Assembly (NCBI RefSeq): GCF_000012625.1
Contig: NC_007516.1
Location: 496,001 to 560,000 of the forward strand
Direction of reading: 5' to 3'
DNA: 64,000 nt
From: Synechococcus sp. CC9605
Lineage (GTDB): Bacteria > Cyanobacteriota > Cyanobacteriia > PCC-6307 > Cyanobiaceae
The number at the start of each line of letters is the position of its first letter. The stretch's first letter is position 1. Made by a program: the position numbers and the translations under genes. This document shows, piece by piece, positions 36,849 to 55,600 of the stretch. The notes below the pieces were generated by a model, which saw only the letters and a program-made list of their open reading frames with translations, had not been told where the DNA came from and did not search any database.

Positions 36849-36863
36849 TCTGCAGGAGCTGTG

Positions 36864-37729: not shown

Positions 37730-37749
37730 TACACATCCGTGCCCGAGCT

Positions 37750-38091: not shown

Positions 38092-38159
38092 CATAACGAT
38101 CCTTCCGTCAACCGACCCGCTTCAGCAGAACCCTGCTCAGCAGAACTGCGCCCACGGCT

Positions 38160-38330: not shown

Positions 38331-38570
38331 AGCAGGCGCGCTCTTCTTTTTGCTTGCCTTTGAATCAAGCGCGTGGCTAGTTTGTGGCAGTGAGGAAAAA
38401 CCTTGCGGGTTGGAAACAAGGACACAACCCCGCGAGTTTTCGAAACCTCTGCCTTTGGCGGGGGTTTCTTTTTGACCTCAGTTATCCACAGGGTCGTGGA
38501 TCCATACCGTGTCTTTGGATCGCAACAGCTGCTCGGAGCACTACCCCTAGCGCTTCAGAGCACAAAAAAA

Positions 38571-39359: not shown

Positions 39360-39497
39360 TCATGTTGAGCGTTCCACCAAAGGCTCATCAGTCGGAATCA
39401 CGACCGATGGCAGCAACCGCTCCCGTTCCAGCCGTAGGTAGCGCTTCCGCTTGGCTCGTTCGAGAGACGATGGGGACAAAGGGCTAACCAGCGTCAT
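39360..39497 (-). CDS. Small basic ORF, island repeat family
   Basis: 45 aa: TLVSPLSPSSLERAKRKRYL then RLERERLLPSVVIPTDEPLV. About 105 bp of it recurs at 46031-46135 in E1 with the frame kept. Highly basic first half; function unknown. Confidence 0.5.
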   Translation of the reverse strand: MTLVSPLSPSSLERAKRKRYLRLERERLLPSVVIPTDEPLVERST

Positions 39498-39524
39498 CTT
39501 GAGTTAGAAACGTCGATCTCCCTG

Positions 39525-40205
39525 ATGCCATCCCTAGAGCTGTATGGATGCTGGCGCTCCAGCGCCTCCCAACGTCTGCAGATTGGTTTGCGACTGAAAA
39601 AGCTGCCATTCAGTTACACCCCTGTCTCCTTGGATCGAGGCGAGCAACATCGCGATTGGTACCGGACCATCAATCCCCGAGCTGAGCTGCCAACCCTGGT
39701 GGTTGATGGCGAGCCTTGGGTTCAAACACTGGCGATCCTCGAGACGCTGGAAGAGACCTTCCCCGAACAGGGGCACTCCCTGCTGCCGAACACGCATCGC
39801 GAACGACGAATCTGCCGTGCGATTGCTGAACAAATCAACAGTTCAATGCAACCACTGCTTCTCCCGGCACGTTTGCGCAAACCCATCATCGAGGCGGGTG
39901 GTCAAACGGCTGCCGCGCCACTGGAGCCTGCCCTCCATGCGGGCATTCGACAGCATCAGCTCAATGCACTCAACTCCCTCAACACCTGGCTGGCGTCGTT
40001 GCCTGGACCCTTTTGCCTCGATTCCTCACCAACAATGGCCGACGCCTGCGTGGTCCCTCAGCTCGACGCGGTGATGCGCCTGGGGCTGGATCTCAGCCCG
40101 TTTGAGCGGCTTGTAGCCCTGCATAGGCATTGTCAAAGCTTGGAAGCTTTCGCAATGGCAGCACCGGATCAGCAACCTGATGCACCGAACCGTTTGAGCG
40201 GCTGA
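39525..40205 (+). CDS. Glutathione S-transferase, zeta/maleylacetoacetate isomerase-like
   Basis: 226 aa. N-terminal thioredoxin-like domain with the zeta-class SSxSxR-like motif (YGCWRSSASQRLQIGLRLKK) and INPRAELPTLVVDGEPWVQT LAILETLEE-type glutathione-binding residues; C-terminal helical domain (~90-220) with PTMADACVVPQLDAVMR. Zeta enzymes isomerise maleylacetoacetate or dehalogenate small acids; no tyrosine-degradation genes are nearby. Cargo of E2, intact. Confidence 0.82.
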   Translation: MPSLELYGCWRSSASQRLQIGLRLKKLPFSYTPVSLDRGEQHRDWYRTINPRAELPTLVVDGEPWVQTLAILETLEETFPEQGHSLLPNTHRERRICRAIAEQINSSMQPLLLPARLRKPIIEAGGQTAAAPLEPALHAGIRQHQLNALNSLNTWLASLPGPFCLDSSPTMADACVVPQLDAVMRLGLDLSPFERLVALHRHCQSLEAFAMAAPDQQPDAPNRLSG

Positions 40206-40222
40206 GCAAAGGGGCTCCCACG

Positions 40223-41812: not shown

Positions 41813-42070
41813 CTTATTGATGGCTGCTTAATCGCGAGGCAACGGCCCAATTTTCTTCAAGCATTGGGTTTCTGTTGAGTAGCAATAACCATGGTAAGTA
41901 CTCTGGAAAATTACTCTTGGACCGAACATTTACTCTCCTAGCCGTGGAGGGAATTCATCGCCTCAAAGGCTTGATTAACTTGGACCAATATAATAGTAAA
42001 AAATAAAATTTCGGCGTCCCCGAGGCTTTGGTTTCTCTTGTCGCTCTCTATGATACAAGGATAAGTAAGT

Positions 42071-42250
42071 TCACCAAGGAAGGGAATAGCACTCAGCAGC
42101 TTGTTTTGGATCAATCTCAGCTACTGCAACCTGCAGCATGTCAGCCACCTTCCCAGACTTCTCGAATGGGTTAGCTGGAGCAATCTTGCTGGCATCAATT
42201 CCCGCCACCTGACAGGCTTTTGCCAATAACTCAATTTCAGTTTTGGTCAT
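42071..42250 (-). CDS. Small hypothetical protein
   Basis: 59 aa from ATG 42250 (MTKTEIELLAKACQVAGIDA): helical, then KSGKVADMLQVAVAEIDPKQ. Longer start at 42289 is possible. No family recognised. Confidence 0.45.
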   Translation of the reverse strand: MTKTEIELLAKACQVAGIDASKIAPANPFEKSGKVADMLQVAVAEIDPKQAAECYSLPW

Positions 42251-42321
42251 CCTTTTTGCGGGCTTCAATGTCCCTGATAGACCCTTCAATTTTAGTTGGC
42301 GCTAAACAACAACTTCCCAGC

Positions 42322-42346
42322 AAAAACCCCGCCATTGCTGACGGGG
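42322..42346 (-). terminator. Reverse-strand terminator-like hairpin
   Basis: CCCCGTCAGCAATGGCGGGG on the minus strand followed by TTTTTG. No gene on that strand ends here, so the transcript it would stop is unknown. Confidence 0.55.
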
Positions 42347-42535
42347 TGAATGTTTTGTCGGGAGATGGATAGCGACAACAACGCCCCTTGCTTTTCCCTT
42401 GCGGGTCTTGTATGGCTTTCAGCGCAGATAGCGAAGATGCTCAAATACAACCATTCGATGGGATTAAAAAAACCTATATTTTAATCACTACTAAAACAAA
42501 ATACATTAATTTAAAAAATGTACGAATGAAGTCTC

Positions 42536-43633
42536 ATGCATCACAAAGGCTTTGCTGTATTCGCTCTAAGTCTCATTGTTGCGTCATCAGCACTTGACGT
42601 AAACGCACACAAGAAGACGTCTTCAGCATCTTGCCCTGATCCAGGCATCACGAATTTGTCAAGCACCTCAAACAAGGTTAGTGTCGACAAATCCAATTAT
42701 GCAAAAGCAGAAACAACGGATGTTTTAAAAGATTACATAAAGAAAATATCAAAGGGCACATGCACTACAGGGGTGGGAGTGTTCATGCATCAGAGATCTG
42801 CTATGGATCCTGCAGATAGGACAATATTAAGACCCAATTTTGACACTCTTTATTCATTTGCAGTGCTAGACCTTAAAAATCCTGCAACAATTAATTTACC
42901 CGAAATCACTCGATACCAAATACTAGAAATTGTTACTGGTGAGCACTGGATACCCCTTGTTAGTGACAAGCCTGGCACTTATCAGATAACCCAAGAGCTG
43001 ACAGGAAGTAGATATGCTTTCGCGATGGTAAGAACACAGGTCAACATGCAGGATGAAAACGATCTCAAAAATGCTAGAGAAGCTCAAGATAAATTAGAAC
43101 TAGTTCAGGCTTCTCAAGGAGTTTATGAGCAAGACAAAGAATTCAATAGGAGTGAAATACTGTCACTTCGAGCTGAATATAATCAAAGAAGACAGCCCGA
43201 GGGCATAACATCCGAAATGATTTTTGGAAAGGAAGGAGAAATTAGCCCTGAAATGCGGAACTTTGGAGTCGCTATTGGCTGGGGGGGACTTCCAAAGCAA
43301 GGGGCCGTATATCCAATGCCAAAACTTACAGAATCGACCGATCCACAAAGGCTAATCATGAAAAATGTGCCTATGGAGAAAGGTTCTTTTTGGTCCGTCA
43401 CCGTTTATGATGAAAACGGTTTTTCTACGGGTAAGTATTACAATATTAACAGCGCATTTGCGAAGGAAAGCAACCCCGGCGAATACATAATCAATCTTGG
43501 CGGATCCGAAAATGAAGATAATTTCTTGAATATATTCCCAGGGTGGAATGCCGTAATCCGAATCTATTCACCTACTAAAGACTATTTCAATGGTTCTTGG
43601 GAAGTCCCTCAGTATGAGCCTAAAAATCAATAA
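42536..43633 (+). CDS. Exported DUF1254/DUF1214 protein
   Basis: 365 aa with a signal peptide (HHKGFAVFALSLIVASSALD). The DUF1254 half has PNFDTLYSFAVLDLKNPATI; the DUF1214 half has SFWSVTVYDENGFSTGKYY and IINLGGSENEDNFLNIFPGW. The family is widespread in bacteria and large viruses with unknown function. Strikingly A+T-rich compared with the core genome, suggesting recent transfer. Flanked by AT-rich non-coding DNA. Confidence 0.85.
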   Translation: MHHKGFAVFALSLIVASSALDVNAHKKTSSASCPDPGITNLSSTSNKVSVDKSNYAKAETTDVLKDYIKKISKGTCTTGVGVFMHQRSAMDPADRTILRPNFDTLYSFAVLDLKNPATINLPEITRYQILEIVTGEHWIPLVSDKPGTYQITQELTGSRYAFAMVRTQVNMQDENDLKNAREAQDKLELVQASQGVYEQDKEFNRSEILSLRAEYNQRRQPEGITSEMIFGKEGEISPEMRNFGVAIGWGGLPKQGAVYPMPKLTESTDPQRLIMKNVPMEKGSFWSVTVYDENGFSTGKYYNINSAFAKESNPGEYIINLGGSENEDNFLNIFPGWNAVIRIYSPTKDYFNGSWEVPQYEPKNQ

Positions 43634-43754
43634 TCACTGCTTCTTTGTTGACTAGTCATATCCGCTAAGCGCAAGCTTCGTTCCAGCTGGGAATCAACTC
43701 CCCCAACTGAGTGATTTATTCAGCGGGGTTCATCCCCCATCTGGGTAGGGGGGC

Positions 43755-44105
43755 TCAGGACAGCGGTGCCCAAAACTCACATTCATCAGTTCCAGTCCGC
43801 CGCACTCGATCAATACTCTTCGCCTTCAGCTGATTCCATACATGCACCCGATCAGTTAGCTCCACTGTCTTCAACCGCGTCGTCAGCACCGTAGTAATTG
43901 GCTGCCTCCCAAATATCCCGTGTTTGCTCTCCAGCTGCACCCGCACCTTGCACCATTCACCATCAACACTCGTCACCTCACCATCAAGTTGGATCTGACA
44001 GCCATCCACATCGCTGACCTTCAATAGCTGGGCGCTGTCTCCGCAACTGAGGAGGACACAATCACCAGCAACAATTCCCTCCTTAACAACAACATCCATC
44101 ACCAC
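43755..44105 (-). CDS. Hypothetical protein downstream of terminase fragment
   Basis: 116 aa, beta-rich: VVVKEGIVAGDCVLLSCGDS, QIQLDGEVTSVDGEWCKVRV and a C-terminal DECEFWAPL. ATG overlaps the end of the TerL fragment, so it was probably the next gene in a phage packaging/structural operon. No family recognised. Confidence 0.5.
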   Translation of the reverse strand: MVMDVVVKEGIVAGDCVLLSCGDSAQLLKVSDVDGCQIQLDGEVTSVDGEWCKVRVQLESKHGIFGRQPITTVLTTRLKTVELTDRVHVWNQLKAKSIDRVRRTGTDECEFWAPLS

Positions 44106-45029
44106 ACCCTCGGACCACGACCAACTGAATAAGGCTTCTGGCAGTAATTAACGGCGTATCGCCAGGTATCAATGCTGTGGGTGATCGCTGTGGGATCCAG
44201 CAGCTCCCTTTTCTTCGTGTCCCTCGCCAATAGCGGCGTTAACTCCCAGAACGCTCTGCAGCGCCTACTCGCCTTCAGCCACGGCTGACTTTCGTCCCGA
44301 TCAGTCGCCCACAACATCGTTCGCAACCGCGCCAGACCCGCCTCTTCTGTCATCTGCGCCTTGCCCGCTCGCTTAAACGGAATGCCCCCCTTCCGAAACT
44401 CATCCCCGATGGTCATCGCGTGACCAGTCCGGTTCCAGCAGGTCATCCATGATCCAGCCCAAGTCCTGTGGCTCCAGCCCCCAACGGCTGATCCACTCCT
44501 GCAAAATCTGCGCCTGCTGCAGGTTGCTAGCCTCTAACCCTGCATTCCAGTCCGGTTCACCAGCCCTGGTCGCCTTCGCCAAATCGCACTCATCAATCGC
44601 GAACGGGCTGCCCCTTGGCAACAGCGGGTGATTGGTGATGAACAACGTGGCGCAGCTTGGTGCCGCAATGCCCCAGTCGAAGCTCACCAGCAGTCGTGAC
44701 CCAGTAGGGATCTCAGGCCGATCACCGCCATTCAGCTCCAGCAGGTTGCGCCGGCTAGACATCGCATCACCGAAGAACGATCCGGTTACATCACCCTCGA
44801 AGCTGCTCTCCAGCCAGGCACGCAGCAGCTCTGGATCACCGCCAGCCGCAATCTCGATCTGACGCCTGGTCTGTTCGAAGTCGAGGTGCGGGTTGGCCGC
44901 AATGTTCGAGCCGATGTAAACGGTGCTGCTGGCCGTGTCCTCGCGGTAGAACCGCACCGGTTGATCTGGTGCAGGGAATCCCGCTGGGTGGCGGGTGAGG
45001 ATTGGCTGAAAAGCCCTGGTGTAACTGGA
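44099..45029 (-). pseudogene. Terminase large subunit C-terminal fragment
   Basis: From att 4 leftward: PAGFPAPDQPVRFYREDTAS, STVYIGSNIAANPHLDFEQT, FEGDVTGSFFGDAM, LVSFDWGIAAPSCATLFITN (nuclease motif), then a frame change near 44420-44450 to GDEFRKGGIPFKRAGKAQ and a stop at 44099. The ATPase half is absent because the gene is cut by att 4. Homologous to the E3 TerL remnant (NxHLDxxQ...FFG). Confidence 0.75.
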
Positions 45030-45081
45030 CGCCCCCTGATGGATTCGAACCATCGACCGACTGCTTAGAAGGCAGTTGCTC
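45030..45081. repeat. Partial tRNA-Arg copy, att site 4
   Basis: 52 bp identical to the 3' half of the tRNA-Arg including the anticodon loop. This is the displaced 3' half left of E1, i.e. its attL. Confidence 0.9.
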
Positions 45082-45121
45082 GCTGCTTTGCAGCAATCGA
45101 TTTCAGCCAATTTTTCGTGTT

Positions 45122-45174
45122 TGCACGGAAGATTGATCTCAGCCCTGCTCGTTGTTCTTCGTAGTTGCACGAAG
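45122..45174. repeat. Arm-type sites, E1 left arm
   Basis: TGCACGGAA at 45122-45130 and TGCACGAAG at 45166-45174. The same 9-mer occurs five times beside the integrase start (55302-55382). Likely integrase arm-binding sites. Confidence 0.65.
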
Positions 45175-45215
45175 CTGCCAGGGCCAGACTGTGGTGACTG
45201 TCGGGCTCTTCAGAG

Positions 45216-46016
45216 ATGGAGCTTCTTGGCTTTCTGTTGGCAGCCCTGGCGGTTGCCTTTGTTATCGCCAAAGTGCTTTTCAAGCAGCAGGCTGGTCCCT
45301 CTCCGAATAACTCACGAGCTGTAAGCCATTCAGCAGTAAATGAAGCCGAATCTTGGGTTGAAAAGGACGCAGAGTCCCTGCTCGATGGGATCCCGCTCAA
45401 GGGGATGGTCTTTCATGCAACCTTCAAGCTCACTACTCCCTTGGCGGTATTGGAGCAGCACGGTTTGCTCGTCCCGCAAGGTGAGCCATTGCCAAAGGTG
45501 ATGCCCGGTGCTGGCAGCTCAGAGGATCCTTTCGGCGCCTATGGGATGTGGTTCCACGAAATCGACTACGAAGCACAGGGTTTCATTCCTCCAGCGCCTT
45601 CGCTGATTTGGACGCAGCTTGGTCATTACAGGGAAAACGATCCTGAATACGCAGAGCTCCTGGAATTTTTGAAGGGGTTTCGGCGCATTGTCGAAAGCAC
45701 CGATGACGTCATGGAGGCCCTTGATCATCTTCAAGACTTCTCACGTCAGTCGCAGTCTCATCAACGCGTCTGGGAGAGGTACACAGACCTGTTCCCCGAG
45801 TTCCCCATGCACTATTTCGCTGAGCAACTTCGCTTCAACATTGGTGGCTCGAAAAAACATGCCAGGTGTCTTATCGACGCTGGCTACACCAGCCCCCAAA
45901 AGGTCAGGGATGCTTCCGATGCAGAGTTGCTGCAGGTCAAAGGCATCGGGTCGATCACTGTGAAGCGGATCCGAGAGAGGCTTGCCAATCCAGGCGAGCG
46001 CTTCGATATGGACTGA
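45216..46016 (+). CDS. Membrane-anchored helix-hairpin-helix protein
   Basis: 266 aa. An N-terminal transmembrane helix (LLGFLLAALAVAFVIAKVLF) is followed by a mostly helical region and, at ~205-260, a helix-hairpin-helix DNA-binding segment (AGYTSPQKVRDASDAELLQV then KGIGSITVKRIRERL). It would hold DNA at the membrane, an unusual arrangement reminiscent of ComEA-like proteins, although ComEA is shorter. First cargo gene right of attL; role unknown. Confidence 0.65.
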   Translation: MELLGFLLAALAVAFVIAKVLFKQQAGPSPNNSRAVSHSAVNEAESWVEKDAESLLDGIPLKGMVFHATFKLTTPLAVLEQHGLLVPQGEPLPKVMPGAGSSEDPFGAYGMWFHEIDYEAQGFIPPAPSLIWTQLGHYRENDPEYAELLEFLKGFRRIVESTDDVMEALDHLQDFSRQSQSHQRVWERYTDLFPEFPMHYFAEQLRFNIGGSKKHARCLIDAGYTSPQKVRDASDAELLQVKGIGSITVKRIRERLANPGERFDMD

Positions 46017-46030
46017 TTTTCAAACGTCAA

Positions 46031-46135
46031 TCAAGTTGGACGTTCCACCAAAGGCTCATCAGTCGGAATCACGACCGATGGCAGCAACCGCTCCCGTTCC
46101 AGACGTAGGTAGCGCTTCCGCTGGGCTGAGCACAT
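46031..46135 (-). CDS. Small basic ORF, island repeat family (copy 2)
   Basis: 34 aa: CSAQRKRYLRLERERLLPSV then VIPTDEPLVERPT. Same 3' part as 39360-39497 with a different 5' end; differences between copies are few. Possibly a truncated copy. Confidence 0.4.
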   Translation of the reverse strand: MCSAQRKRYLRLERERLLPSVVIPTDEPLVERPT

Positions 46136-46395
46136 AGGCCCTGGCTCAGGCAGGTGGACGTGCCAGCCAGCAGCAAGACGTTCATTAGTCTACTCAAAGG
46201 TCACTGATATGCACCAGCAGTGGGACATGACCCAGTTGCGGCGAAGTCGGCTAGCAATTAGATCAAGGAATCTGAAGCTCCAATTGAGTCATCAATTTTG
46301 CGTCAAATGCCAGTCGCAAACGCGAGTGCATATTCGGCCATGCACTAAGCAGCGACATAACAAACGACAATCATCTCCAAAGCTTTTATCATTCA

Positions 46396-46584
46396 TTAGT
46401 CAAGACTATTACTAACTCGCTGCCATTTTTCCGCTCCCCAGGAACAGCTTGATAACTCAATTTGCTCAGGCTTGCTAGGTTTTTCTTCCGATAGCAATAA
46501 CTGGTCAGCAACAGCCTGGGAATGATGCAACGATTCAAACCAAGCGAGAACAGAGATATAGATGAGCAAAGAAATGAATTTCAT
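46396..46584 (-). CDS. Small putative exported protein
   Basis: 62 aa with a hydrophobic N-terminus (KFISLLIYISVLAWFES) and a polar C-terminus containing one Cys. A+T-rich. Start lies 75 bp from the CRP-type palindrome at 46659. Function unknown. Confidence 0.5.
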   Translation of the reverse strand: MKFISLLIYISVLAWFESLHHSQAVADQLLLSEEKPSKPEQIELSSCSWGAEKWQRVSNSLD

Positions 46585-46658
46585 TTAACCAGAAGACATC
46601 AACAAATTAAGCATCAGCCTTTTCGTATTGTATGGATATGATTTGGATCTCAGCAGCC

Positions 46659-46674
46659 TGTGATCAAGATCACA
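46659..46674. promoter_or_regulatory. CRP-type palindrome TGTGATCAAGATCACA
   Basis: Perfect TGTGA-N6-TCACA dyad, extended by CC/GG to 20 bp of symmetry. Between divergent exported-protein genes (46396-46584 reverse, 46873 forward). CRP-family binding is an inference from the consensus. Confidence 0.5.
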
Positions 46675-46872
46675 GGTGTTGCATTAGTTAACCGCGATCA
46701 TTGGGATGTTATTCAGTAAATACTTTCCGGTCGTATGACGGATTTGTGCCAGGCAAACGGTCGCAACAAGCATTACGTCAAGTACAGAGGCCCTAACGAT
46801 CATTGATTAAAGTACAGCCACCACATGATGACGTGTTAAACCAGTGAAATCCTCAAAAAAACTGGGATCCTC

Positions 46873-47166
46873 TTGGTACTTGCTGCAGGGTTTCACACCC
46901 CCAAAGCACTCGCCGAGATAACTGTTTATAACGTCAATGCAATTCACGAGCTTTTTAGTGAAAACGAAATAGCTGCTAAAAAGATCTATCACAACAAAAA
47001 AGCTCTTGTATTCGGGAGAGTAGATAAAGTTGACGACGAAAACGTGATAATTGAGGGAGACAGCGAATTTGGGCGCTTATTCTGCAGATACGGCAGTCAA
47101 GATTTGAATAAAGTTCTTGCTCTTAGGGAAGACAGCAGAGTAAGGTCCGTGGAACACTTGAAATAA
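46873..47166 (+). CDS. Exported OB-fold (tRNA_anti-like) protein
   Basis: 97 aa from TTG 46873; the frame upstream adds (SEILKKTGIL)LVLAAGFHTPKALA, a signal peptide. A GTG at 46841 would start it properly if the A7 run at ~46856 had one more A, so a one-base loss is possible. The mature part, ITVYNVNAIHELFSENEIAA then KKALVFGRVDKVDDENVIIE, fits the tRNA_anti-like OB fold found in many exported bacterial proteins. Function unknown. Confidence 0.6.
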   Translation: MVLAAGFHTPKALAEITVYNVNAIHELFSENEIAAKKIYHNKKALVFGRVDKVDDENVIIEGDSEFGRLFCRYGSQDLNKVLALREDSRVRSVEHLK

Positions 47167-47444
47167 GCTGGGCCCCTTGGGGCATGTTCCTAAACATGTA
47201 CGACTGCAGGGTGATCTAATTCCAGGGCATATGAGCTGGCCCGAGATGGTCGCAAGCTGTTTTACGGAAGGCAAGAAATCGGAATTGAGAACCCGAACGA
47301 CAAATGTCAATCAAGTCGCATCTCAAAGCACAGTAAAGTAAAAACCAAGATCACAAACAGGTCGTAATATCAAACCAAAGAAACAAAACTTGACAGAAGG
47401 GTTGCTTGTTATATACTCAAACAACCAAGAGAAGACTTAAGCGA

Positions 47445-48149
47445 GTGAAAAAACAAATTCTTGCCGCCACTACCCTTCTTCTTCTTGGATCGGGAAGCGC
47501 ATTAGCAGGAACTTATGACGCTCTATGCGGAGACATGGAATGCCAGATCTCAGTAAGCGGGAAGGGGGTAAGTAGCCCTGCAGGTTTTACACCCATAGAT
47601 CTGATATCACAGTGGAATGTCGGCAAGGCATCTGATTACAACGCAGGCAAAGGTGTTGCAGGCGGCCTTGGCGGAGCCACTGCAGGAGCAATAGGAGGAG
47701 CGGTGTTACTCGGCCCTATAGGCCTCTTAGGCGGACTAATTGGTGGAGCAATTGCAGGAGCTGATGCAGGCAAAGAATTTGAGGGTTATTTTACAATCGT
47801 TGGATACAATAAAAAAGGAGAAAAGATTGCTCATAATTTCTTCTTCATTAATCGCAAGCCTGTCAAAAGATTACTCTCTGAGTTGCCACTTATAACTGGT
47901 CTTGCCTTAGGAGAGGAACGGGATCTTAGCGAGATAGAAGCCGCATTTTCAGGACAAAGCAAAAGTACAAACGCCAAAGAAAATCTTCCTTCAAGGCTTG
48001 GTCAAACGAAGACAGCTGCTAAAAAAGATAAGTGCTGGGAGGACTTCCTCAACTCGAATCCTGCAATGGCGGTGTGGGCGAACAATAACCCTCAGCTAGC
48101 TGATAAACAAAGAGTTAAAAGTGGATATAACTTATGCGAAAAAAATTAA
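47445..48149 (+). CDS. Exported glycine-zipper protein, island family member 2
   Basis: 234 aa from GTG 47445: signal peptide KKQILAATTLLLLGSGSALA, YDALCGDMECQISVSGKG, then a glycine-zipper membrane-like segment (~75-115: GGLGGATAGAIGGAVLLGPI GLLGG... pattern), and a C-terminal CWEDFLNSNPAMAVWANNNP with a final Cys. N- and C-terminal motifs match the E3 protein at 31100-31771, which lacks the glycine zipper. May sit in the outer membrane or envelope. Function unknown. Confidence 0.7.
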   Translation: MKKQILAATTLLLLGSGSALAGTYDALCGDMECQISVSGKGVSSPAGFTPIDLISQWNVGKASDYNAGKGVAGGLGGATAGAIGGAVLLGPIGLLGGLIGGAIAGADAGKEFEGYFTIVGYNKKGEKIAHNFFFINRKPVKRLLSELPLITGLALGEERDLSEIEAAFSGQSKSTNAKENLPSRLGQTKTAAKKDKCWEDFLNSNPAMAVWANNNPQLADKQRVKSGYNLCEKN

Positions 48150-48230
48150 TTCGTTGGCCTTGAACTAAACAGTCTCAATACGCATTACGTACTATCACCT
48201 GATCTGAGAGGCGATACCAAAACCAAATCC

Positions 48231-48650
48231 TTAGACAGTGACAGTCTTGCTGTCCTCGAGGGATTGTAATGTCTGCCGGATCTCTTGCAGCTGCCGCCGC
48301 TGCTCAGCCTCCAAGACGTTCTCGCGCAGGATCTTGAAGCTCTCGCTGATGGCCTGCGTTCTGGCATAGGCCTTCACATTGGGATCCAGCGCGATCTGGA
48401 TCAGCTCGTCCGCGAGGCGTGGTGCAGCTGAAGTCAACAAGTTGTTGGCGACGTTGAGGTTTTCACGTACCAACGTTTCGATGAACTCTTCAGCCCTGCG
48501 GTCTCGATACCACTTGCGTAGGCATGGTGCCTTGATACCAACAGCAGCTGCCGCATCAGCCCAAGTGGAACCATTGGCACAAAGCGTCAGGGCTTTGATG
48601 ATGTGCGGCGGTATTGCGTCAAATCTGTTGACGAGCTGATTCTCACTCAT
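48231..48650 (-). CDS. Candidate terminase small subunit
   Basis: 139 aa from ATG 48650. N-terminal HTH (KALTLCANGSTWADAAAAVG then IKAPCLRKWYRD) followed by a long helical oligomerisation region (NLNVANNLLTSAAPRLADEL) and a C-terminal coiled coil. This layout and length match phage small terminase (TerS), which recognises pac/cos DNA. In satellites TerS redirects helper-phage packaging. Overlaps its upstream partner by 4 bp. Could instead be another HTH phage regulator. Confidence 0.6.
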   Translation of the reverse strand: MSENQLVNRFDAIPPHIIKALTLCANGSTWADAAAAVGIKAPCLRKWYRDRRAEEFIETLVRENLNVANNLLTSAAPRLADELIQIALDPNVKAYARTQAISESFKILRENVLEAEQRRQLQEIRQTLQSLEDSKTVTV

Positions 48651-48901
48651 GACATCGCTCCAGGGAAACCTTTGGATTTCAGCTGCTTCCATTTGCGAAG
48701 CCTGCGCTGGTCGCTCATCCCAGGAGCCCTGCGGTCCCGTAGTTGCTCAGGCGTGACACCTTCGAGCATCCAGCGCTGATATGCAAGCCTTGCAAATTCA
48801 TCTGCTGCATGTCGATCTCTGCTGAACAGTTGTTCTGCCACCCGGTTGCAACGTGAGAGGACTAGCCACTCATCCATTGTTGTGTTCCAGGGTGTACTCA
48901 T
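48647..48901 (-). CDS. Small protein in the terS operon
   Basis: 84 aa: TTMDEWLVLSRCNRVAEQLF, HAADEFARLAYQRWMLEGVT, ending RLRKWKQLKSKGFPGAMS. Its stop overlaps the TerS candidate start (ATGA). No known domain. May be a TerS partner or capsid-modifying factor. Confidence 0.55.
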   Translation of the reverse strand: MSTPWNTTMDEWLVLSRCNRVAEQLFSRDRHAADEFARLAYQRWMLEGVTPEQLRDRRAPGMSDQRRLRKWKQLKSKGFPGAMS

Positions 48902-49218
48902 CTCGACCAGATGCGCTTTCTTAAATACTACCTAGTGTTTTTATCTAGCGGCTGTGCTACATTAAACCTATCGAGAATTGGTGCTATTTTAAAAGGTTCT
49001 CTGGGGGTCGCTGATAACATCAGAAATCCGAACCTCACCCCCCTAAGTAATCAGCAAAGCTAATAACAGTAAGTGTCATCTAATAGACCAATTGCATAAG
49101 AAATAGTCAGCAAAGATGCGTCATTCCTTGTGATCCCAAGGAATGAACACCGCGTAAAATACTAATAAGACGCGGTGGCAGACCAGCACTGCGTTCTTGG
49201 CTAATTAAAACTAAAAAA
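48902..49218. promoter_or_regulatory. Divergent intergenic region
   Basis: 317 bp, A+T-rich, between the terS operon (reverse) and the mini recombinase (forward); it must hold both promoters. No clear operator repeat seen. Confidence 0.4.
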
Positions 49219-49794
49219 ATGAAGTCCAATCGACACGGGCAGTCGCGTGTGTTGAGCACCGACGAGCTCGATTTATTGATTTCAAAGCTGCCTGAGCAGC
49301 ATCACAAGATCGTTGCCGAGATTTGTCGCCGTACTGGCTGCCGTATTGGTGAGGCAACGCAGCTCACCTGGGGGATGGTTTCGGAATCTGCCGTTACGTT
49401 CCAGAAAGGAATCACCAAAGGAAAGCTGGCGAGTCGGTCGGTGCCAGTTACGCCAGCGTTGTGGGAAGCCCTGCGCTCCTGGAGAGGTGCTTGGGTGGTG
49501 CGGCAGGGTCGTGAACCTGCGGCTGGTGACCATCTCGTGCCAGGCAGATTTGCAGGTTCTTGCCTGAGTACGCGCAGCTTTATGGATGCCCTTGAAAGGG
49601 CCGCGGCTGAATCGGGCCTAGAAGGCGTTTCTAGCCACTCTTTTCGGCGTTCGGCTTTAACTTCGGCGCACAATGCTGGCGTGCCGTTGAGGGTGCTTAT
49701 GGCCCTGTCTGGGCACAAATCGATGTCAGCCCTGCAGCGTTATCTCGAAGTGACGCCTGCTCAACGTGAAGCTGCCGCTGCTGCCTTTGCTTGA
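49219..49794 (+). CDS. Minimal tyrosine recombinase (191 aa)
   Basis: Only the catalytic domain is present. Catalytic set: R42 (GCRIGEA), K in KGITKGK, H140 and R143 (SSHSFRRS), H166 (SGHKSM) and Y175 (QRYLEV). The N-terminal core-binding domain found in integrases is missing. It could act on a local site, such as the paired inverted repeats just downstream, or serve as a resolvase or copy-number factor for E1. It differs from the main integrase at 54043. Confidence 0.85.
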   Translation: MKSNRHGQSRVLSTDELDLLISKLPEQHHKIVAEICRRTGCRIGEATQLTWGMVSESAVTFQKGITKGKLASRSVPVTPALWEALRSWRGAWVVRQGREPAAGDHLVPGRFAGSCLSTRSFMDALERAAAESGLEGVSSHSFRRSALTSAHNAGVPLRVLMALSGHKSMSALQRYLEVTPAQREAAAAAFA

Positions 49795-49855
49795 GTAGTT
49801 AGCGTGTGCCACGCTAATCGATATCGGAAAACCGATAACGGATTTTTGGTCGAAT

Positions 49856-49929
49856 TTCTGACAATTTGTCCGAACCCTCCGAAAATCGGATGTTTGGGAT
49901 TCGTCGAAGTTCTGACAATTTGTCAGAAC
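49856..49929. repeat. Two TTCTGACAATTTGTC repeats after the mini recombinase
   Basis: Inverted repeats at 49856-49874 (TTCTGACA / TGTCCGAA) and 49909-49929 (GTTCTGACA / TGTCAGAAC), each around ATT, 54 bp apart, between two converging genes. Candidate crossover or operator sites. Confidence 0.5.
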
Positions 49930-49930
49930 C

Positions 49931-50161
49931 TCAACTAAGAGGGCAAAGTTTGCCGATGGGTTGGCCGTTGTCATTGGCTGGCCTATCGCCATCGACTCGA
50001 ACAACGATCCACGGTTGGAATGTCTCCACACCATCCGGTGGCTCTGGCACTTCCTCACCGCGAAAGACTCCGGTGGCCACCCACAAGGGTGGTCGTGTTT
50101 TCTCCAGATGCACTTGTTGTGCTTTGCGCAGCAATCGCGCCAGTTCGCGTGAATTGTCCAT
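49931..50161 (-). CDS. Small hypothetical protein
   Basis: 76 aa: DNSRELARLLRKAQQVHLEK then a Pro-rich segment with PWIVVRVDGDRP. Soluble; no family known. Convergent with the mini recombinase; its promoter side faces the iteron array. Confidence 0.55.
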   Translation of the reverse strand: MDNSRELARLLRKAQQVHLEKTRPPLWVATGVFRGEEVPEPPDGVETFQPWIVVRVDGDRPANDNGQPIGKLCPLS

Positions 50162-50295
50162 GGTTATTTGAGCCCTGCTGCTCTTGTTCTACCGGCATTT
50201 AACTATTGGAATCCCAATAATTGAAGCAAGCGCTTACGGCGGGATTTTTCCCTGTGGAGATACGCGGCTTTTGGAACGGCTTTTTGCGTCAAAGG

Positions 50296-50564
50296 TGTCC
50301 CGGACATCACGCGAGTCAATTCCATTGTCGCCGAAATCCCCTGCAATAACTACGCCCGGACGTTCCGGACAGCCCGGACATCATCATTTCGGTGTTCGTT
50401 CAACCCTGGGTGGCGGTGGTGCTTAAACCGCTGCTTATCCCTTTCACTTTTTCTTTCTCATAGAAAGGAGAGTCAATAGTGTCCGGTATGTCCAGAGGCA
50501 GCCACCGCAGGGCTTTTCAGCGAAATGGTCGTAAATGTCCGGGCTATTCCGGACATGTCCGGTC
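50296..50564. repeat. Iteron-like CCGGACA/TGTCCGG array, candidate origin
   Basis: At least eight copies of the core CCGGAC or GTCCGG, mostly as CCGGACA/TGTCCGG: 50300, 50356, 50365, 50374, 50480, 50536, 50549 and 50556. The last two form a palindrome TTCCGGACATGTCCGG. A T/C-rich, lower-G+C stretch lies between the groups (50425-50470). Lies past the end of the primase-helicase gene, where satellite Rep proteins often act. Confidence 0.65.
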
Positions 50565-50655
50565 GCTAATTGAAGACATGATCCCGAAGCTGGCTTGTAG
50601 TTAGAGAGCGTCTACTCGCAGCCTCATCAAGCTGCGGGTCCTCTGTACTCGAGCG

Positions 50656-50871
50656 ATGTACTGCGTTGAACGTGACAATGGCCCCGACCAGTGGGCCAGA
50701 GAAACTTGCTTTCAAACTGAATTCAAGGCGTTCGTTCATGCCCGCACAAAATCGCTGGCAACAGGGAACACCTATCGAGTTCTGTTCAGTAGCCCCTCCA
50801 TTACAGGAGAGGTGCTGAGAGTTTCGAAAGGGAAGGCACTCTTAGATACCGATGACCAACTAGTTGGGTAG
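50656..50871 (+). CDS. Small TYRV-type protein
   Basis: 71 aa: YCVERDNGPDQWARETCFQT then ARTKSLATGNTYRVLFSSPS. Resembles 23660-23851 in overall pattern. Its last 12 bp overlap the end of the convergent primase gene. May be a real small gene or a chance frame. Confidence 0.45.
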   Translation: MYCVERDNGPDQWARETCFQTEFKAFVHARTKSLATGNTYRVLFSSPSITGEVLRVSKGKALLDTDDQLVG

Positions 50872-53568
50872 CCGTTGGTGCTCAAACACCTGTTCAGGCG
50901 TAGGTGCTTCAGCCTTATGACTGACCAAAGCAGCCCAGTTGCCTTCGCGGTAATTGCGTTTCTCCCACCGAGCGCAATCAACCTCTGGGCGTATCCGGAA
51001 ACCAAACAACTGAGGGTTCACCTTCTTGGTTGAGTTGGTGCCAGGTACGGAACGACGTTGGGTGTGCAGGTTGGGTAACGCCTGTTTGATCCGAGTCAGC
51101 AGCGTCCTCCTGTTGAGCACCTTGGTGTATCCAAAGTCCTCGCAGAATTGCTTGAACGTTTCGTACAGCACCCCCAACTTCGGCATGTAATCGCCCCCGC
51201 AGGGCTCACAGCAGTTGTCGAGGAATTGGCGAACCACATCCATGTCGGCCTCAACGTTGTGTTGAGCGTCGATAAAGGTCTGGTTACCGCTGACAAGCAC
51301 ACGCTTCACATCAGCGTGTTTGGCCTGAAGCGCCCAACTAACGATTGAGCCAAGTTCACCAGCAAGCTTCTGATCCAAGTCAGCATCCGGCTTTTCAGCA
51401 GGTCGCTGAGTTTCGAGGATCAAAGCCCTGCGTGCCATGCCGCTACCAGCGTTCTCAAACTGAGGCGCTTGGCTGCTGCAAATGACGACGCGACCAGTGA
51501 AGACGACGCCTTCGGTGTCATCGGTAAATAGGTTGCGTTGAGCCATCAAGCCGCCATCAACCATCGAATAGATGGTGGTCACCCCGGTTTGCAAACCCTG
51601 CACATCCGGGAACGCGACCAGTTGCTTACCCGAGACGTACTGCCGGATCTTTTCCGGTGAGTTGATCTCTTTGATGCTGCTGGTGATGGAGCTGACGCAG
51701 CTAGGCGGGAACAACTTCTCAATCAGTCGTTCCAAGACGCCTTTACCGCTGCCAGATGGACCGATGACCATCACGATCTTTCGGTTAGGCAGCGTCGGAT
51801 CAACCATGTAGCGCAGCAACTGCTGCACCGGTTCGACGTAGTGATCGCCAAAGCTGCTGACGATGAAGTCATGCAGGTGCGGCGGACACTCAACACAGTC
51901 CGGAATGAAGTCACCTTGGATCGAATAAGTGAGCCGGTACTCAGGCTTATGAGGAACCAGCTCACCCTTATCGATCAAGTAGGTGCCATTAGCGAAGGCA
52001 ATGGCGGGGGTTTGATCCATCTCTGCATCAGCAGTCATGGTTTCGAGCCACTCAATCGAGGACTTCACCCGTGATGCGGTTGAGAACCGAAACACCTTTT
52101 CCTCGTCCTTGTTGTACGAGAAGCACTTGAGCAGCAGGTCTGCGACCTCACGCTTCATCGCATCACGCGAAACGTGCAACCAACAGCCCTGGTCCGGGTT
52201 GTAACGGACAAAGCGCCCCCGACTGTGGGCCAACGGTTGATTGGTCAGATCGCCTTTCAATCCAATGGCGTTCTCAATGACCACCTCGCAGGTCTTGATG
52301 CGGCAGACCGTCCAAAACGAGTCATCGATGTTTGCGGTCCAATCGGCTGGATTGGATGCGGGGACTAAACGCTTGTGCCAGCCATACGAATGACGCCACA
52401 AACCTTCGTGTTCAAAGTGCGCCCGCAACTTCCGTTTGAGATAGGTGTCGCAGTAATCGGACGTGCCGCAAGGTTCAGGCCGGTAATGCTCTTCAAGAGC
52501 TGCTTCGACATCACCACCTTTCATGCCGCTAGCGCGGATGAAATCCGACATCAACGTCATTTCGATGCTGTCGGCATCCACAACGGTGCAACCGAGTGAC
52601 TCAAGGTGCAGGCGACCAGCACGCAGGTGCTTGCTTAGTTGCCAGCACTTACGCCAACGGTCATCAGAGTCAGGATCCAAGCCTTTCAACAGACCTAGCG
52701 TCTTTGGAGCAAGTGCCTGAATCAGATGACCCGGGGGCAGGGTTGAAAAGTCGGGAAACTGCTCATGGTCATCAGGTTCAGGACCATCTGCTGGCCTGAA
52801 GTCACCACCGCTGTCAGTGACGTCATCAACTGGTTCATCCAGTTCAGGCAAGAACGACAGCACCTCATCTAGCTCATAGGTGTGAGGTGACAGGTGGATG
52901 ATTTCAGCCCTGCGGCCGGTTTTGGGATGCACTGAGCCAGCAAGACGCTGTACCTGAACAGCGCTGTGCAAGTTGTGATCGGTTTGGACACCAGGGTTGG
53001 CATCTTCAATCGCTTTGCTCAGTCGCTCTCGACAGAACTCAGCAGCAGTAAGAGAAACCGGTGTTCTGAAGACCCAACTCCAGTGGATGGACTTGTTTCC
53101 TGTGAAGACACCAATGGTTGGAGTCGGCAGATTCGCTTTCTTCCAAGCAACCTTTTGACCCTCAAGATCGAGACCCTCATCGATCTCATACGACATGCAC
53201 ACCACACCGGTGATCGTGTCGCGGCGCTTACTCGTGCCACCAATGGCAGAGAGGAACCCGAGGTTTGGAGTCTTCGGATTTTGAAGGTGGTGGCGTACTA
53301 AGTCGAAGCGACGATCACCGTTGAACTTGGCAACTACCTGGTCCCAGTCGTAAGGCAGATCATTTTTCAGATCACGTGCCGGAACGTACCGGGAGGTGTC
53401 GCCATAGCAAGCAAGGATGCAGGGGTCGTCTTCACCAAAGCCAACAGCCTCCAAGTGCCGTTGCGCTTCTTTCTCATCGATGTCTGTGAGTTCGAGAGGC
53501 TCTTCTTCTAATACAATAGAAGCCTGAACATCGACAACTTCAGAAGTCTGCTTGCAGGGAGTACCCAT
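50860..53568 (-). CDS. Primase-SF3 helicase (D5/Rep-like)
   Basis: 902-aa replication protein. The N-terminal half carries AEP-type primase motifs: an acidic CMSYEIDEGLD segment (~125), GNKSIHWSW (~155) and QRLAGSVHPKTGRR (~205). A middle D5_N-like region leads to an SF3 helicase: Walker A GPSGSGKG (603-610), Walker B region QLVAFPDVQG, sensor VVICSSQAPQF. The C-terminus has a winged-helix-like part. Such proteins replicate plasmids, phages and satellites; its origin is probably the nearby iteron array. Follows the HTH gene on the same strand. Confidence 0.9.
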   Translation of the reverse strand: MGTPCKQTSEVVDVQASIVLEEEPLELTDIDEKEAQRHLEAVGFGEDDPCILACYGDTSRYVPARDLKNDLPYDWDQVVAKFNGDRRFDLVRHHLQNPKTPNLGFLSAIGGTSKRRDTITGVVCMSYEIDEGLDLEGQKVAWKKANLPTPTIGVFTGNKSIHWSWVFRTPVSLTAAEFCRERLSKAIEDANPGVQTDHNLHSAVQVQRLAGSVHPKTGRRAEIIHLSPHTYELDEVLSFLPELDEPVDDVTDSGGDFRPADGPEPDDHEQFPDFSTLPPGHLIQALAPKTLGLLKGLDPDSDDRWRKCWQLSKHLRAGRLHLESLGCTVVDADSIEMTLMSDFIRASGMKGGDVEAALEEHYRPEPCGTSDYCDTYLKRKLRAHFEHEGLWRHSYGWHKRLVPASNPADWTANIDDSFWTVCRIKTCEVVIENAIGLKGDLTNQPLAHSRGRFVRYNPDQGCWLHVSRDAMKREVADLLLKCFSYNKDEEKVFRFSTASRVKSSIEWLETMTADAEMDQTPAIAFANGTYLIDKGELVPHKPEYRLTYSIQGDFIPDCVECPPHLHDFIVSSFGDHYVEPVQQLLRYMVDPTLPNRKIVMVIGPSGSGKGVLERLIEKLFPPSCVSSITSSIKEINSPEKIRQYVSGKQLVAFPDVQGLQTGVTTIYSMVDGGLMAQRNLFTDDTEGVVFTGRVVICSSQAPQFENAGSGMARRALILETQRPAEKPDADLDQKLAGELGSIVSWALQAKHADVKRVLVSGNQTFIDAQHNVEADMDVVRQFLDNCCEPCGGDYMPKLGVLYETFKQFCEDFGYTKVLNRRTLLTRIKQALPNLHTQRRSVPGTNSTKKVNPQLFGFRIRPEVDCARWEKRNYREGNWAALVSHKAEAPTPEQVFEHQRLPN

Positions 53569-53606
53569 CTAGAATCAAGGGGTGAACGACAACATCTGTT
53601 TCCGGA

Positions 53607-53635
53607 GGTCACCGAGGGGCACGGTGGCCTTTTTT
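53607..53635 (+). terminator. Forward-strand terminator between two reverse genes
   Basis: GGTCACCG-AGGGGCA-CGGTGGCC hairpin then TTTTTT. It points opposite to both neighbours, so it would end an antisense or unknown forward transcript. Confidence 0.6.
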
Positions 53636-53642
53636 ATGCCAA

Positions 53643-53879
53643 CTATTTGTGCTCAGAAAAGAACGGAAAGCCCTGTTGCTCCATGGCTTCTTTCACCTCC
53701 TCCATGTGCCAAGCAGTCTTCGATGTTCTGTAAGGACCTTTCTTGAAGTGTTTGCCTTCAAGGAGAAATCCTGATTCTGCGTTTGCATAACGCCGTAGCG
53801 ACCATTCACTGATTCCCAGCACCCTGGCTGCTTGTCGAGTTGACAACCAGGTTTCACCCTTTGGGACTGTTAGGAACAT
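53643..53879 (-). CDS. Small helix-turn-helix protein (excisionase/AlpA-like)
   Basis: 78 aa. HTH at ~13-32 (STRQAARVLGISEWSLRRYA), then a wing-like GKHFKKGPYRTSKTAWHMEE. The MerR/excisionase-type fold and position between integrase and primase suggest a directionality factor or operon activator. Basic C-terminal half supports DNA binding. Confidence 0.7.
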   Translation of the reverse strand: MFLTVPKGETWLSTRQAARVLGISEWSLRRYANAESGFLLEGKHFKKGPYRTSKTAWHMEEVKEAMEQQGFPFFSEHK

Positions 53880-54042
53880 GCTGCTTTAAAGATCTAGTCA
53901 GTTCAACGTAGCCCCTGAATTTGCGCGCACAGGGCTATTTACCACCATCCATAGTGTCCCGTGAAAATGTTACTTTCTTGGCTAGTACATCAGACCATCG
54001 ATTTCGTTCTGCTTGCTGTCTATTCGCTGCTTGTTTGAGTTT

Positions 54043-55287
54043 CTAGATTGCTACTTTAGAAGTATTGGATGTTTCAAACGCTTCTTTCACGAGTTTCAGG
54101 CTGTGTTGCCGCTGGTACGTCTGAAGGTGAACTTGCAGGCTGTGCCCCATCGCTACTGCAGCCGCTTTTGGTGGGATTGGCGGCGTGGCCATCGCGCATC
54201 GATCGGCAAAGCAATGGCGAAGGCTGTAGAGGCTCACCCGCTGCCCCAATGCCTTTGCGTCTGACTTGTATTCCATCCAGACGTCGTTTCGCCGCAGGAA
54301 AGTGTCAATGGCTCCCGACGCGGCCTTATCGGTGCTTCCCAATGGAGGCAGTTCAGTGATGCCGCTGCTCAGTGTCATCAGCAGCTGTTGCCCAAGCCCT
54401 GCTCGCCCTGCGGGGTCAAGGATTGGTACGTCTCTTGCTTCTGTTGACCCTTTGGCAGTCCGTTTCCCGTAGTTGACGTGCAGGTGGTCGCGGTGAGCGG
54501 TGGCGTACTTCAGTTCCACCCCCCGCAGGCCGAAGACACCGATCAACCCCACTGCCAGCTTCCAGCGTGCGTTGGCAATCGAGTCGAACAAACGCAAAAA
54601 CTGTTCGTCAGACAGGGCTAACGCTTGCCCCGATTGGCTGGCCTTGCTGCTGTTGGGTGCTGGCTCACCTATTAAGTCCCGGATGGTGTCTTCGTCTGGG
54701 GGAAGCCAGCGACCTGAAGCACCGCACTTCGACACCGCAAACCTGAGCATCTGCACGGCGTACTGGATACGCAGCTTCCGGCTGCGACTTCCCGGCGCAT
54801 CGCCTTGCCCGTTTCGCCCTGCGCGCATGGCGGCCAAAGCAAGTTCGGCGTTGTTTGGTACGTCTGCTCCAGTTAGTACGTCAATCAGCCAAAGCAGCCG
54901 AGGTGCGTACTCCTTTTCCCAGGTGGTCTCCTTGACCTTCGCCGGCACTTTGAAGTCGTAGAAGCGGCTGTAAATCTCCCGCCAGTTCGTTTGCACCTTC
55001 GGCCCTGCGGTGAGGTCGAAAGTCAGCCGCACTGCGTCCTTAAGCGAAAGCCCCTTGGCGATTGCGGCATTGATGCCGTGCAGGGCATTGAGGACTTCTC
55101 GCTCGCAGCCACGCCGCCACTCAATGGGCAAGGTCGCGGCTTGGCGTTTTCCGGTGTCTTTCCAATACCGCTCGACCTGCACCTTCCCGCGCATAGGTCG
55201 TACCGAATAGCCCCATTTGTGCTGCGTCTTGATCGCACGCTTAAGTGCCGCCTCCCAAGGCTGTGCGTCAGCGCGCTCCTTTGGCAT
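54043..55287 (-). CDS. Tyrosine recombinase integrase of E1
   Basis: 414 aa. N-terminal arm-binding region (~1-90), core-binding domain (~95-220), catalytic domain (~225-414) with R255 (FGLRGVEL), K in RTAKGS, Y354-S-L-R357-H358 (HxxR with Tyr in the first place), H382 (MGHS) and nucleophile Y391 (QTYQRQ). It starts 150 bp from the tRNA-Arg, with five TGCACGGAA sites between, so it almost certainly integrates at the tRNA 3' half. Confidence 0.92.
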   Translation of the reverse strand: MPKERADAQPWEAALKRAIKTQHKWGYSVRPMRGKVQVERYWKDTGKRQAATLPIEWRRGCEREVLNALHGINAAIAKGLSLKDAVRLTFDLTAGPKVQTNWREIYSRFYDFKVPAKVKETTWEKEYAPRLLWLIDVLTGADVPNNAELALAAMRAGRNGQGDAPGSRSRKLRIQYAVQMLRFAVSKCGASGRWLPPDEDTIRDLIGEPAPNSSKASQSGQALALSDEQFLRLFDSIANARWKLAVGLIGVFGLRGVELKYATAHRDHLHVNYGKRTAKGSTEARDVPILDPAGRAGLGQQLLMTLSSGITELPPLGSTDKAASGAIDTFLRRNDVWMEYKSDAKALGQRVSLYSLRHCFADRCAMATPPIPPKAAAVAMGHSLQVHLQTYQRQHSLKLVKEAFETSNTSKVAI

Positions 55288-55301
55288 GTGCGTCTCTCCC
55301 G

Positions 55302-55382
55302 TGCACGGAAACTACCGAGCTGCACGGAAGATTGCACGGAAACAGCACGGAAGATGCTCAAACATCCTCAAAATGCACGGAA
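55302..55382. repeat. Arm-type sites, E1 right arm
   Basis: Five TGCACGGAA (or AGCACGGAA) copies at 55302, 55321, 55333, 55344 and 55374, between the integrase start and the tRNA; same 9-mer in the left arms of E1 and E2. Confidence 0.7.
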
Positions 55383-55437
55383 GCTGGCAGGGCTCGTCTC
55401 GGTGTGAGAAGCCCTGCTGCTGCTTGGCTTTTAGTAA

Positions 55438-55511
55438 CGCCCCCTGATGGATTCGAACCATCGACCGACTGCTTAGAAGGCAGTTGCTCTATCCAGCTGA
55501 GCTAAGGGAGC
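55438..55511 (-). tRNA. tRNA-Arg (anticodon UCU)
   Basis: 74-nt cloverleaf on the minus strand: acceptor GCTCCCT pairs AGGGGGC (one G-T), D arm, anticodon stem ACTGC/GCAGT with loop CTTCTAA, T arm GGTTCGAATCC, discriminator G. CCA not encoded. It is the intact target of the island; its 3' half repeats at four places leftward. Confidence 0.97.
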
Positions 55512-55600
55512 AAGCGTCCACATCTTGGCAGGCTGCTTCAAGGCAGGCTGGTTTTAGAAGCCTTGCGCCGCCTAAGGTGATGAGCTCTTGATCGGCATCC

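Follow-up and report, generated by a model that had tools for sequence, protein, structure and literature searches.

The 64,000-nt window analyzed here, positions 496001-560000 of the single 2.51-Mb contig NC_007516.1 of Synechococcus sp. CC9605, contains an element of about 10 kb next to a tRNA-Arg gene. This element, E1 (45029-55436 in window coordinates), is probably an integrative phage satellite with a small terminase subunit (TerS) as its only terminase gene, working like the phage-inducible chromosomal islands (PICI) and the Staphylococcus aureus pathogenicity islands (SaPI). E1 is a discrete tRNA-targeted insertion, and its core, consisting of an integrase, a helix-turn-helix (HTH) protein, an archaeo-eukaryotic primase (AEP)-helicase, a mini tyrosine recombinase, a small partner protein and TerS, recurs in related elements. 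The ends and core of E1 are the following.

55437-55512, minus strand: intact tRNA-Arg(TCT), the integration target (ARAGORN; Rfam tRNA, 67.6 bits).
55437-55489: attachment (att) repeat of 53 bp at the integrase end, 53/53 identical to 45029-45081.
54043-55287, minus strand: tyrosine integrase, 414 aa (phrog_1 integrase, 2.1e-12).
53643-53879, minus strand: HTH protein, excisionase- or regulator-like, 78 aa (phrog_66 excisionase/regulator, 8.6e-5).
50860-53568, minus strand: AEP primase-SF3/D5 helicase, 902 aa (Pfam D5_N, 1.2e-8; Pox_D5, 2.9e-7).
49219-49794, plus strand: mini tyrosine recombinase, catalytic domain only, 191 aa (Phage_integrase, 5.2e-22).
49148-49177: inverted repeat 8-14-8 of 30 nt upstream of the mini recombinase gene, a candidate recombinase site or operator.
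48647-48901, minus strand: 84-aa helical partner overlapping the start of TerS (aligned with 19 relatives).
48231-48692, minus strand: putative TerS, 153 aa (phrog_7344 TerS, 2.1e-4; the AlphaFold2 model resembles small terminases).
45029-45081: att repeat of 53 bp at the distal end (Rfam partial tRNA at 45038-45094).

The exact 53-bp repeat that flanks E1 corresponds to the 3' half of the tRNA-Arg gene, and to the left of the two repeats the identity goes no further. The first-pass annotation of this DNA had placed the element next to a tRNA, which agrees with the tRNA-Arg(TCT) gene called there. Copies of the tRNA half start at 45029, 37389, 28884 and 25780, with identities of 53/53, 51/53, 46/53 and 49/53, respectively. 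Four elements are thus stacked at this tRNA, and E1, which adjoins it, is presumably the youngest.

25780-45028: older stacked elements E4 (from 25780), E3 (from 28884) and E2 (from 37389), delimited by the tRNA-half copies.

In two genomes of the same genus (G131, locus L116, and G197, locus L117), the host DNA up to 25827 continues directly through one intact tRNA into the sequence after 55437. Because the host sequence is contiguous there, we regard both sites as empty; the E2-E4 region is missing from them as a block. The 53-bp tRNA-Arg repeat together with these empty sites shows that E1 has a specific attachment site, which is a PICI trait.

Related elements are found at the same tRNA in other genomes. 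The 11.6-kb element L115 (genome G215), which also has 53-bp repeats, is very close to E1 in its integrase (98.6% identity), HTH protein (87%), mini recombinase (95%), partner (87%) and TerS (94%), and its primase is similar in the N-terminal part alone and ends in DUF3987. The 10.0-kb element L126 (G208) has 48-bp exact repeats 10,019 bp apart, an AAA_25 helicase and lower identities (integrase, 62%; HTH, 43%; mini recombinase, 63%; partner, 43%; TerS, 58%). In both genomes the integrase gene adjoins the tRNA. A third copy, L125 (G203), is decayed. L115 and L126 retain the layout of integrase, HTH protein, replication gene, mini recombinase, partner and TerS, and what differs is the helicase and the cargo. 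Behind TerS, L115 has HNH and T5orf172/GIY-YIG-like open reading frames (ORFs) and L126 has a PLD-like nuclease, cargo that looks like anti-phage defence. As two further genomes have this core flanked by tRNA repeats, E1 is not a lone remnant.

The integrase, HTH, primase-helicase and mini recombinase assignments of the first-pass annotation were upheld by Pfam and PHROGs and, for the AEP domain (residues 109-241 of the 902-aa protein), by a match to the PrimPol structure PDB 6zp9 (1.3e-11). The integrase had no Pfam match in the profile scan. E1 matched only general integrase, primase and TerS families in Pfam and PHROGs, with no PICI gene set being compared. Neither database gave a credible head, tail or lysis gene in E1, in line with what had been noticed from the letters alone, so that the structural and lysis genes of a prophage were not found. 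The wider PHROGs scan took in E1, L115, L126 and L159, with 58 of their 59 picked ORFs, and the statement applies to the 25 families listed among 56 matched. Two weak matches were discounted: phrog_27534 ("head protein," 5.7e-5), which covers the helix-hairpin-helix part of a cargo ORF (45216-46016) alone, and phrog_167 (tape measure, 3.1e-4) on the other cargo ORF (47406-48149). A resident helper prophage with a PF05065-type capsid was also considered and set aside, as PF05065 (Phage_capsid), the one capsid family searched, was unmatched in the CC9605 genome.

The TerS-like gene had been described together with a coupled partner, and both parts of this description hold, given the match to phrog_7344 and the overlapping 84-aa ORF. 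A distant relative in L198 has a TerS match at 8e-8. In the AlphaFold2 model of the E1 protein (pLDDT 74, pTM 0.45), helices at residues 29-62 fit an HTH, and long helices (65-102 and 108-148) stand behind these short ones. The model, with moderate scores and small terminase matches of about 100 residues, therefore has the N-terminal HTH and the helical oligomerization region that are characteristic of TerS. Comparison with known TerS folds had been proposed as a check, and it did not refute the assignment. Seven of the 50 matches listed by fold alignment (VIA-align) align over at least 98 residues, and five of these are named small terminases (PaP3, NV1, SPP1-like, E217 and G20C; Z 4.2-5.7), with scores in the chance range. 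The other two are the phage protein phBC6A51 (2ao9, Z 7.8), which we take to be a TerS relative, and one mitoribosome chain. In a fold search against viral models, 11 of the 50 listed matches were named TerS. As fold scores of this size lie within the chance range for helical proteins, the genomic setting weighs more for the assignment. Fold, weak profile matches and setting all back the identification as TerS, none of them being decisive alone. The helical part and the C-terminal end are conserved across the family. Compared to the copy near 910 kb in the same genome, TerS shows a synonymous divergence (dS) of 0.49 and a nonsynonymous divergence (dN) of 0.053, and the partner shows values of 1.26 and 0.28, respectively, so that TerS appears to be under purifying selection. 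The mini recombinase gene beside it is identical in DNA to the one at 908950-909522 of the genome, 364 kb away, although the adjoining TerS genes have diverged (dS 0.49); this is a sign of recent exchange or conversion. Taken together, these values point to selection and to exchange between elements. The AlphaFold2 model of the partner consists of four helices (pLDDT 81), and a fold search with it gave no match.

Two observations concern the surroundings of TerS in other elements. A coiled-coil-like ORF of about 160 aa is present in 18 of the 50 loci compared (e.g., L054 4775-5254) and not in E1; it usually sits between the 84-aa-type gene and TerS and may act in scaffolding or in setting the capsid size. 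In genome G045, genes resembling type I restriction-modification were seen by eye close to the TerS module (L041 104-5487).

The TerS and recombinase genes are widespread. Of 201 family genomes, 20 have relatives of TerS (E ≤1e-5) and 11 have relatives of the primase (1e-10). A search of 400 family genomes for the mini recombinase (1e-12) gave 78 matches in 57 genomes, representing 17 of 59 genera. We examined 40 of these 78, mostly the better-scoring ones, and a further nine loci that came via TerS, the common tRNA or IMG/VR. Within 4 kb of the mini gene, 18 of the 40 loci have an E1-type TerS and nine have a large terminase subunit (TerL), which makes 27 of 40, 26 of them divergent. E1 also has the recombinase divergent from the TerS module. 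Across all 49 loci, 27 of the 28 TerS genes paired with a mini gene, and 9 of 9 such TerL genes, are on the opposite strand and upstream of the mini start; the TerS match in L196 is doubtful, as it also fits a coiled-coil family. Protein distances correlate best between TerS and the mini recombinase (r 0.67; integrase and primase against both, 0.45-0.56), and this is little informative.

The mini recombinases keep the catalytic residues of tyrosine recombinases. The K, H, R, H and Y of the catalytic R-K-H-R-H-Y set are present in all 50 aligned proteins, and the remaining R is present in 49, one mini being truncated. An inverted repeat (arms of at least 7, spacer of 7 to 14) precedes 25 of the 50 mini genes. 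In 100 single-base shuffles the mean was 1.4 (maximum 5), and windows drawn at random from these loci gave 2.5 (maximum 6); total lengths of the inverted repeats are 24-30 nt. In ten palindromic sites, chosen for exact complementarity of at least six pairs, so that Watson-Crick pairing is built in, and including the close kin E1, L115 and L125, the center AAAAT is common, and arm pairs 2-6 differ between elements on both sides. The pattern of the E1 palindrome occurs at two places in the CC9605 genome, each before a mini gene; a backward control pattern also occurs twice, so that the count is at the chance level and only the position is informative. The 317-bp gap between partner and mini gene is conserved at 0.88 in G215 and 0.86 in G203, more than the nearby third codon positions (0.74-0.81 and 0.57-0.83, respectively), which indicates a functional region; the 910-kb copy does not lend itself to such a comparison, as its mini gene is identical. 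It is possible that this region is the packaging site of E1, for which it is our candidate.

We consider the palindrome likely to be the target of the recombinase, with an operator as an equal rival. There is an even chance that it is a mere operator or RNA leader and not a recombination site. It lies 42-71 nt ahead of the start codon in E1 and folds well as RNA (z -5.6), and a second copy was not found in the same genome, nor a convincing one within the elements, as would suit an operator or leader. On the other hand, an operator does not readily account for arms that differ around a constant center at the same position, for the invariant catalytic residues of the minis or for the 11-7-11 site of a viral contig, L211. 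Core sites of tyrosine recombinases have an 11-7-11 shape. If the palindrome is a recombination site, the presence of one per element suggests that its natural use is multimer resolution; a DNA inversion system was rejected, as no second palindrome was found in the genome and no convincing one in the elements. Catalytic-domain recombinases the size of FimB, and multimer resolution at dif or res sites, are the closest comparison: the minis, at about 190-200 aa, have intact catalytic residues and an inverted repeat near the gene, but they are linked to phage packaging genes, and their activity is a prediction. Tentatively, E1 might typify a large unnamed satellite family of picocyanobacteria. 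Its hallmark would be a mini recombinase that forms, with its own palindrome of about 24-30 nt, a multimer-resolution unit, usually back to back with TerS or TerS plus TerL, so that replication products are resolved or kept as concatemers in step with hijacked packaging.

Some of the relatives carry a TerL. The sister element L053 (G186), at a tRNA-Val, encodes an integrase, an E1-related primase, a TerS-like protein (phrog_645 only) and a TerL of 475 aa (Terminase_3, 1.4e-6); a mini recombinase was not found in it. Relatives of this TerL are present in 9 of 201 genomes, and PHROGs found TerL in nine of the ten loci of the TerL-type set. Broken copies of the L053-type TerL are present in E2 and E3, beside E1.

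44099-45027, minus strand: E2 terminase large subunit, 5'-truncated and cut at the E1 att repeat (phmmer; 81-82% to L053 TerL).
31869-33357, minus strand: E3 terminase large subunit, decayed, in three ORFs (phmmer to L053 TerL).

Elsewhere in the CC9605 genome (1546-1585 kb), two tandem TerL-bearing elements, L201 and L202, each with an integrase-like gene, lie near a tRNA-Pro, and another Terminase_6N match is found at 447480. A small protein with a common N-terminal motif was seen by eye near terminase genes in the window (42071-42289), in L201 (13431-13976) and in L202 (7244-7723).

Among viral sequences, the IMG/VR contig L211 (8,167 bp) has a 40-bp exact direct terminal repeat and encodes a mini recombinase with its 11-7-11 inverted repeat, a helicase and a TerS (phrog_4102, 3e-6); another integrase was not found with two integrase queries. 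The terminal repeat is compatible with a circle or a concatemer and is not proof of encapsidation.

Several results weigh against E1 being a satellite with a TerS of its own, and a number of them concern TerS itself. It also matches phrog_645, an "RNase E" family, at 0.0035; Pfam gave no TerS family for five E1-type TerS proteins scanned, E1's own having HTH matches alone; and phrog_7344 at 1e-3 matches two of four scanned. All Z values of the fold alignment are below 8, with rmsd values of 5.4-12.3 for the terminases. Foldseek gave weak E values (phBC6A51, the best, 0.016; NV1 TerS, 0.35), and in the PDB profile search E217 TerS (0.39) ranked below unrelated chains. A tblastn search with TerS had no match in 50,697 phage records (E ≤1) or in 72,556 plasmid records. 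In IMG/VR there was no close relative of the E1 primase, TerS or mini recombinase, and queries with a set of marine TerS proteins, a set of mini recombinases, the L053 TerL and the L164 TerS likewise gave nothing. The sole IMG/VR contig with an E1-type TerS, L054, has a ribonucleotide reductase-like gene (by eye) and may therefore be host DNA. The pairing of genes is not general either: 13 of the 40 mini loci had neither TerS nor TerL with the queries used (one of them, L191, encodes a protein with a match to TerS PHROGs at 1.2e-8), and 8 of 12 loci chosen by TerS (L043-L050) had no mini recombinase match at 1e-3. In the TerL-type set, for which 81 of 132 picked ORFs were scanned, two members matched head-morphogenesis or protease families (among the 25 of 67 families listed), and L211 holds a weak head-morphogenesis-like gene. 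Part of the wider family may thus not be free of capsid genes.

PICI and SaPI have an integrase, a regulator, a primase-replication module and TerS, without a full virion set. E1 has the same set of genes and differs in its host lineage and proteins, its AEP-type primase and its catalytic-only second recombinase divergent from TerS. The first-pass annotation had read E1 as a satellite, and this is borne out as far as the modules for integration, replication and packaging recognition without virion genes are concerned; the conserved core, the empty host sites and purifying selection acting on TerS add to what that annotation saw. If E1 works in this way, infection by a tailed helper phage would lead the HTH protein to aid the integrase in excising the element, and the primase-helicase would replicate the circle, starting at the repeats near 49.8 kb. 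The mini recombinase would act on its own palindrome, most likely resolving multimers. TerS and the 84-aa partner would then mark E1 DNA and recruit the large terminase of the helper, so that E1 is packed in helper capsids, in the manner of SaPI TerS plus Ppi. The pac SaPIs rely on a TerS of their own together with Ppi (PMC6739421). The list that defines PICI includes induction, interference and packaging (PMC6092414); a conserved layout of the replication origin is a further criterion, and for this E1 shows the two 31-nt repeats on the side of the replication gene. Induction, interference and packaging call for phage experiments, and as E1 is known here from its genes alone, we do not class it as a PICI.

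Other explanations have to be weighed against an E1 that is transferred as a satellite. It is unlikely that TerS and its partner chiefly poison helper packaging as a form of defence, with little transfer of E1. The PICI protein Rpp binds and redirects the helper TerS (PMC6739421), and relatives of E1 carry nuclease cargo. However, related elements with swapped modules are present at the same tRNA in G000, G215, G203 and G208, and the site is empty in G131 and G197, which points to transfer. Just as improbable, in our opinion, is a plasmid-like or tycheposon-like cargo element, moved by vesicles, conjugation or transformation, in which the TerS-like protein is a DNA-binding regulator. The variable cargo and the modest TerS similarity would fit with this, as would the tRNA-bordered tycheposons carried by marine bacteria (PMC10872708 and PMC10803314), but in 9 of 40 loci it is a TerL that occupies the slot divergent from the mini gene, and a large terminase does not act as a regulator; moreover, TerS is conserved across the family in its helical part and C-terminal end. 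Least probable is a decayed prophage whose structural genes have gone and whose early genes and terS remain by chance. In its favor, terS next to replication genes is typical of phages, broken TerL genes are present in E2 and E3, and terminase genes in islands of marine Synechococcus genomes were read as relics of prophages in the P-SS2 paper (PMC2784084). Against it, the core ORFs of E1 are open, TerS is under purifying selection, PF05065, the one capsid family searched, is unmatched in the CC9605 genome, and elements flanked by tRNA repeats in G215 and G208 have the same core, the families listed for them including neither capsid nor tail genes. Many independent att-bounded copies with this core and without virion genes would speak against decay, and some were found here.

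The satellite phage P4 uses the cos site and Sid of its helper and is not known to have a TerS of its own. E1 differs in carrying TerS; it resembles P4 in its helicase half (23% identity to P4 alpha over 40% of the query) and in the excisionase-like HTH protein. Virion-encapsidated integrative mobile elements (VEIMEs) and tycheposons are mobile islands of marine bacteria, among them many possible satellites (PMC10803314), and tycheposons are tRNA-bordered with a tyrosine recombinase (PMC10872708). E1 is likewise a tRNA-targeted tyrosine recombinase element with cargo, and it may already be listed among them. For the virion or vesicle trait we found only the distant, terminally redundant relative L211, which is not known to come from particles. 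PICMI of Vibrio, also a small marine satellite, has integrase, primase and alpA genes and no capsid-remodelling genes, and in PICMI115 a terS, sid or ppi homologue is reported not to have been found (PMC10803314); E1 differs in having a TerS.

We see E1 as a variant of known satellites and the recombinase-packaging pairing as the fresh part; a limited literature search, covering listings and partial texts, found no report of this pairing. If E1-type elements are functional satellites, a second parasite may commonly accompany cyanophage infection in marine and fresh waters, and through it picocyanobacteria of many genera would exchange cargo that includes nuclease genes. That so small a recombinase is paired with packaging genes also poses a concrete, testable question: how satellites control their multimers ahead of packaging.

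The remaining features of E1 lie in the repeat region and in the cargo.

49931-50161, minus strand: small conserved protein of unknown function, 76 aa (relatives in L115, L040, L125, L041, L159 and L162).
49846-49876 and 49900-49930: two 31-nt direct repeats, a candidate replication origin (from sequence).
47406-48149, plus strand: cargo ORF, 247 aa, related to 31232-31771 in E3.
46020-46127: non-coding repeated block, also in E2 (39349-39456) and at 911 kb.
45216-46016, plus strand: cargo ORF, 266 aa, with a C-terminal helix-hairpin-helix (Pfam HHH_5, 1.2e-6).

An iteron-like array had been noticed in the repeat region. Direct repeats are indeed present, but there are merely two copies of 31 nt, and Tandem Repeats Finder reported no tandem repeats in the window. 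The region 49846-49930 is a possible replication origin; DNA similarity to L040 ends there, and 49796-49940 folds as RNA with a z of -6.1. In L115 the corresponding slot, with the mini recombinase gene on one side and the small conserved ORF on the other, holds a PAP_fibrillin gene (12175-12768; 2.7e-17).

PADLOC gave no family for either cargo ORF of E1. The interval 46777-48167 is absent from the 910-kb relative and was considered as a recombination cassette, which was rejected as the flank in common is merely 9 nt. An attC-like function of the non-coding block was rejected as well (fold z -1.2 and -0.2). In E1 this block directly follows a cargo ORF, and versions of 59-112 nt that are more than 90% alike across elements are also present at 911177-911288 of the CC9605 genome and at 14984-15042 of L053.

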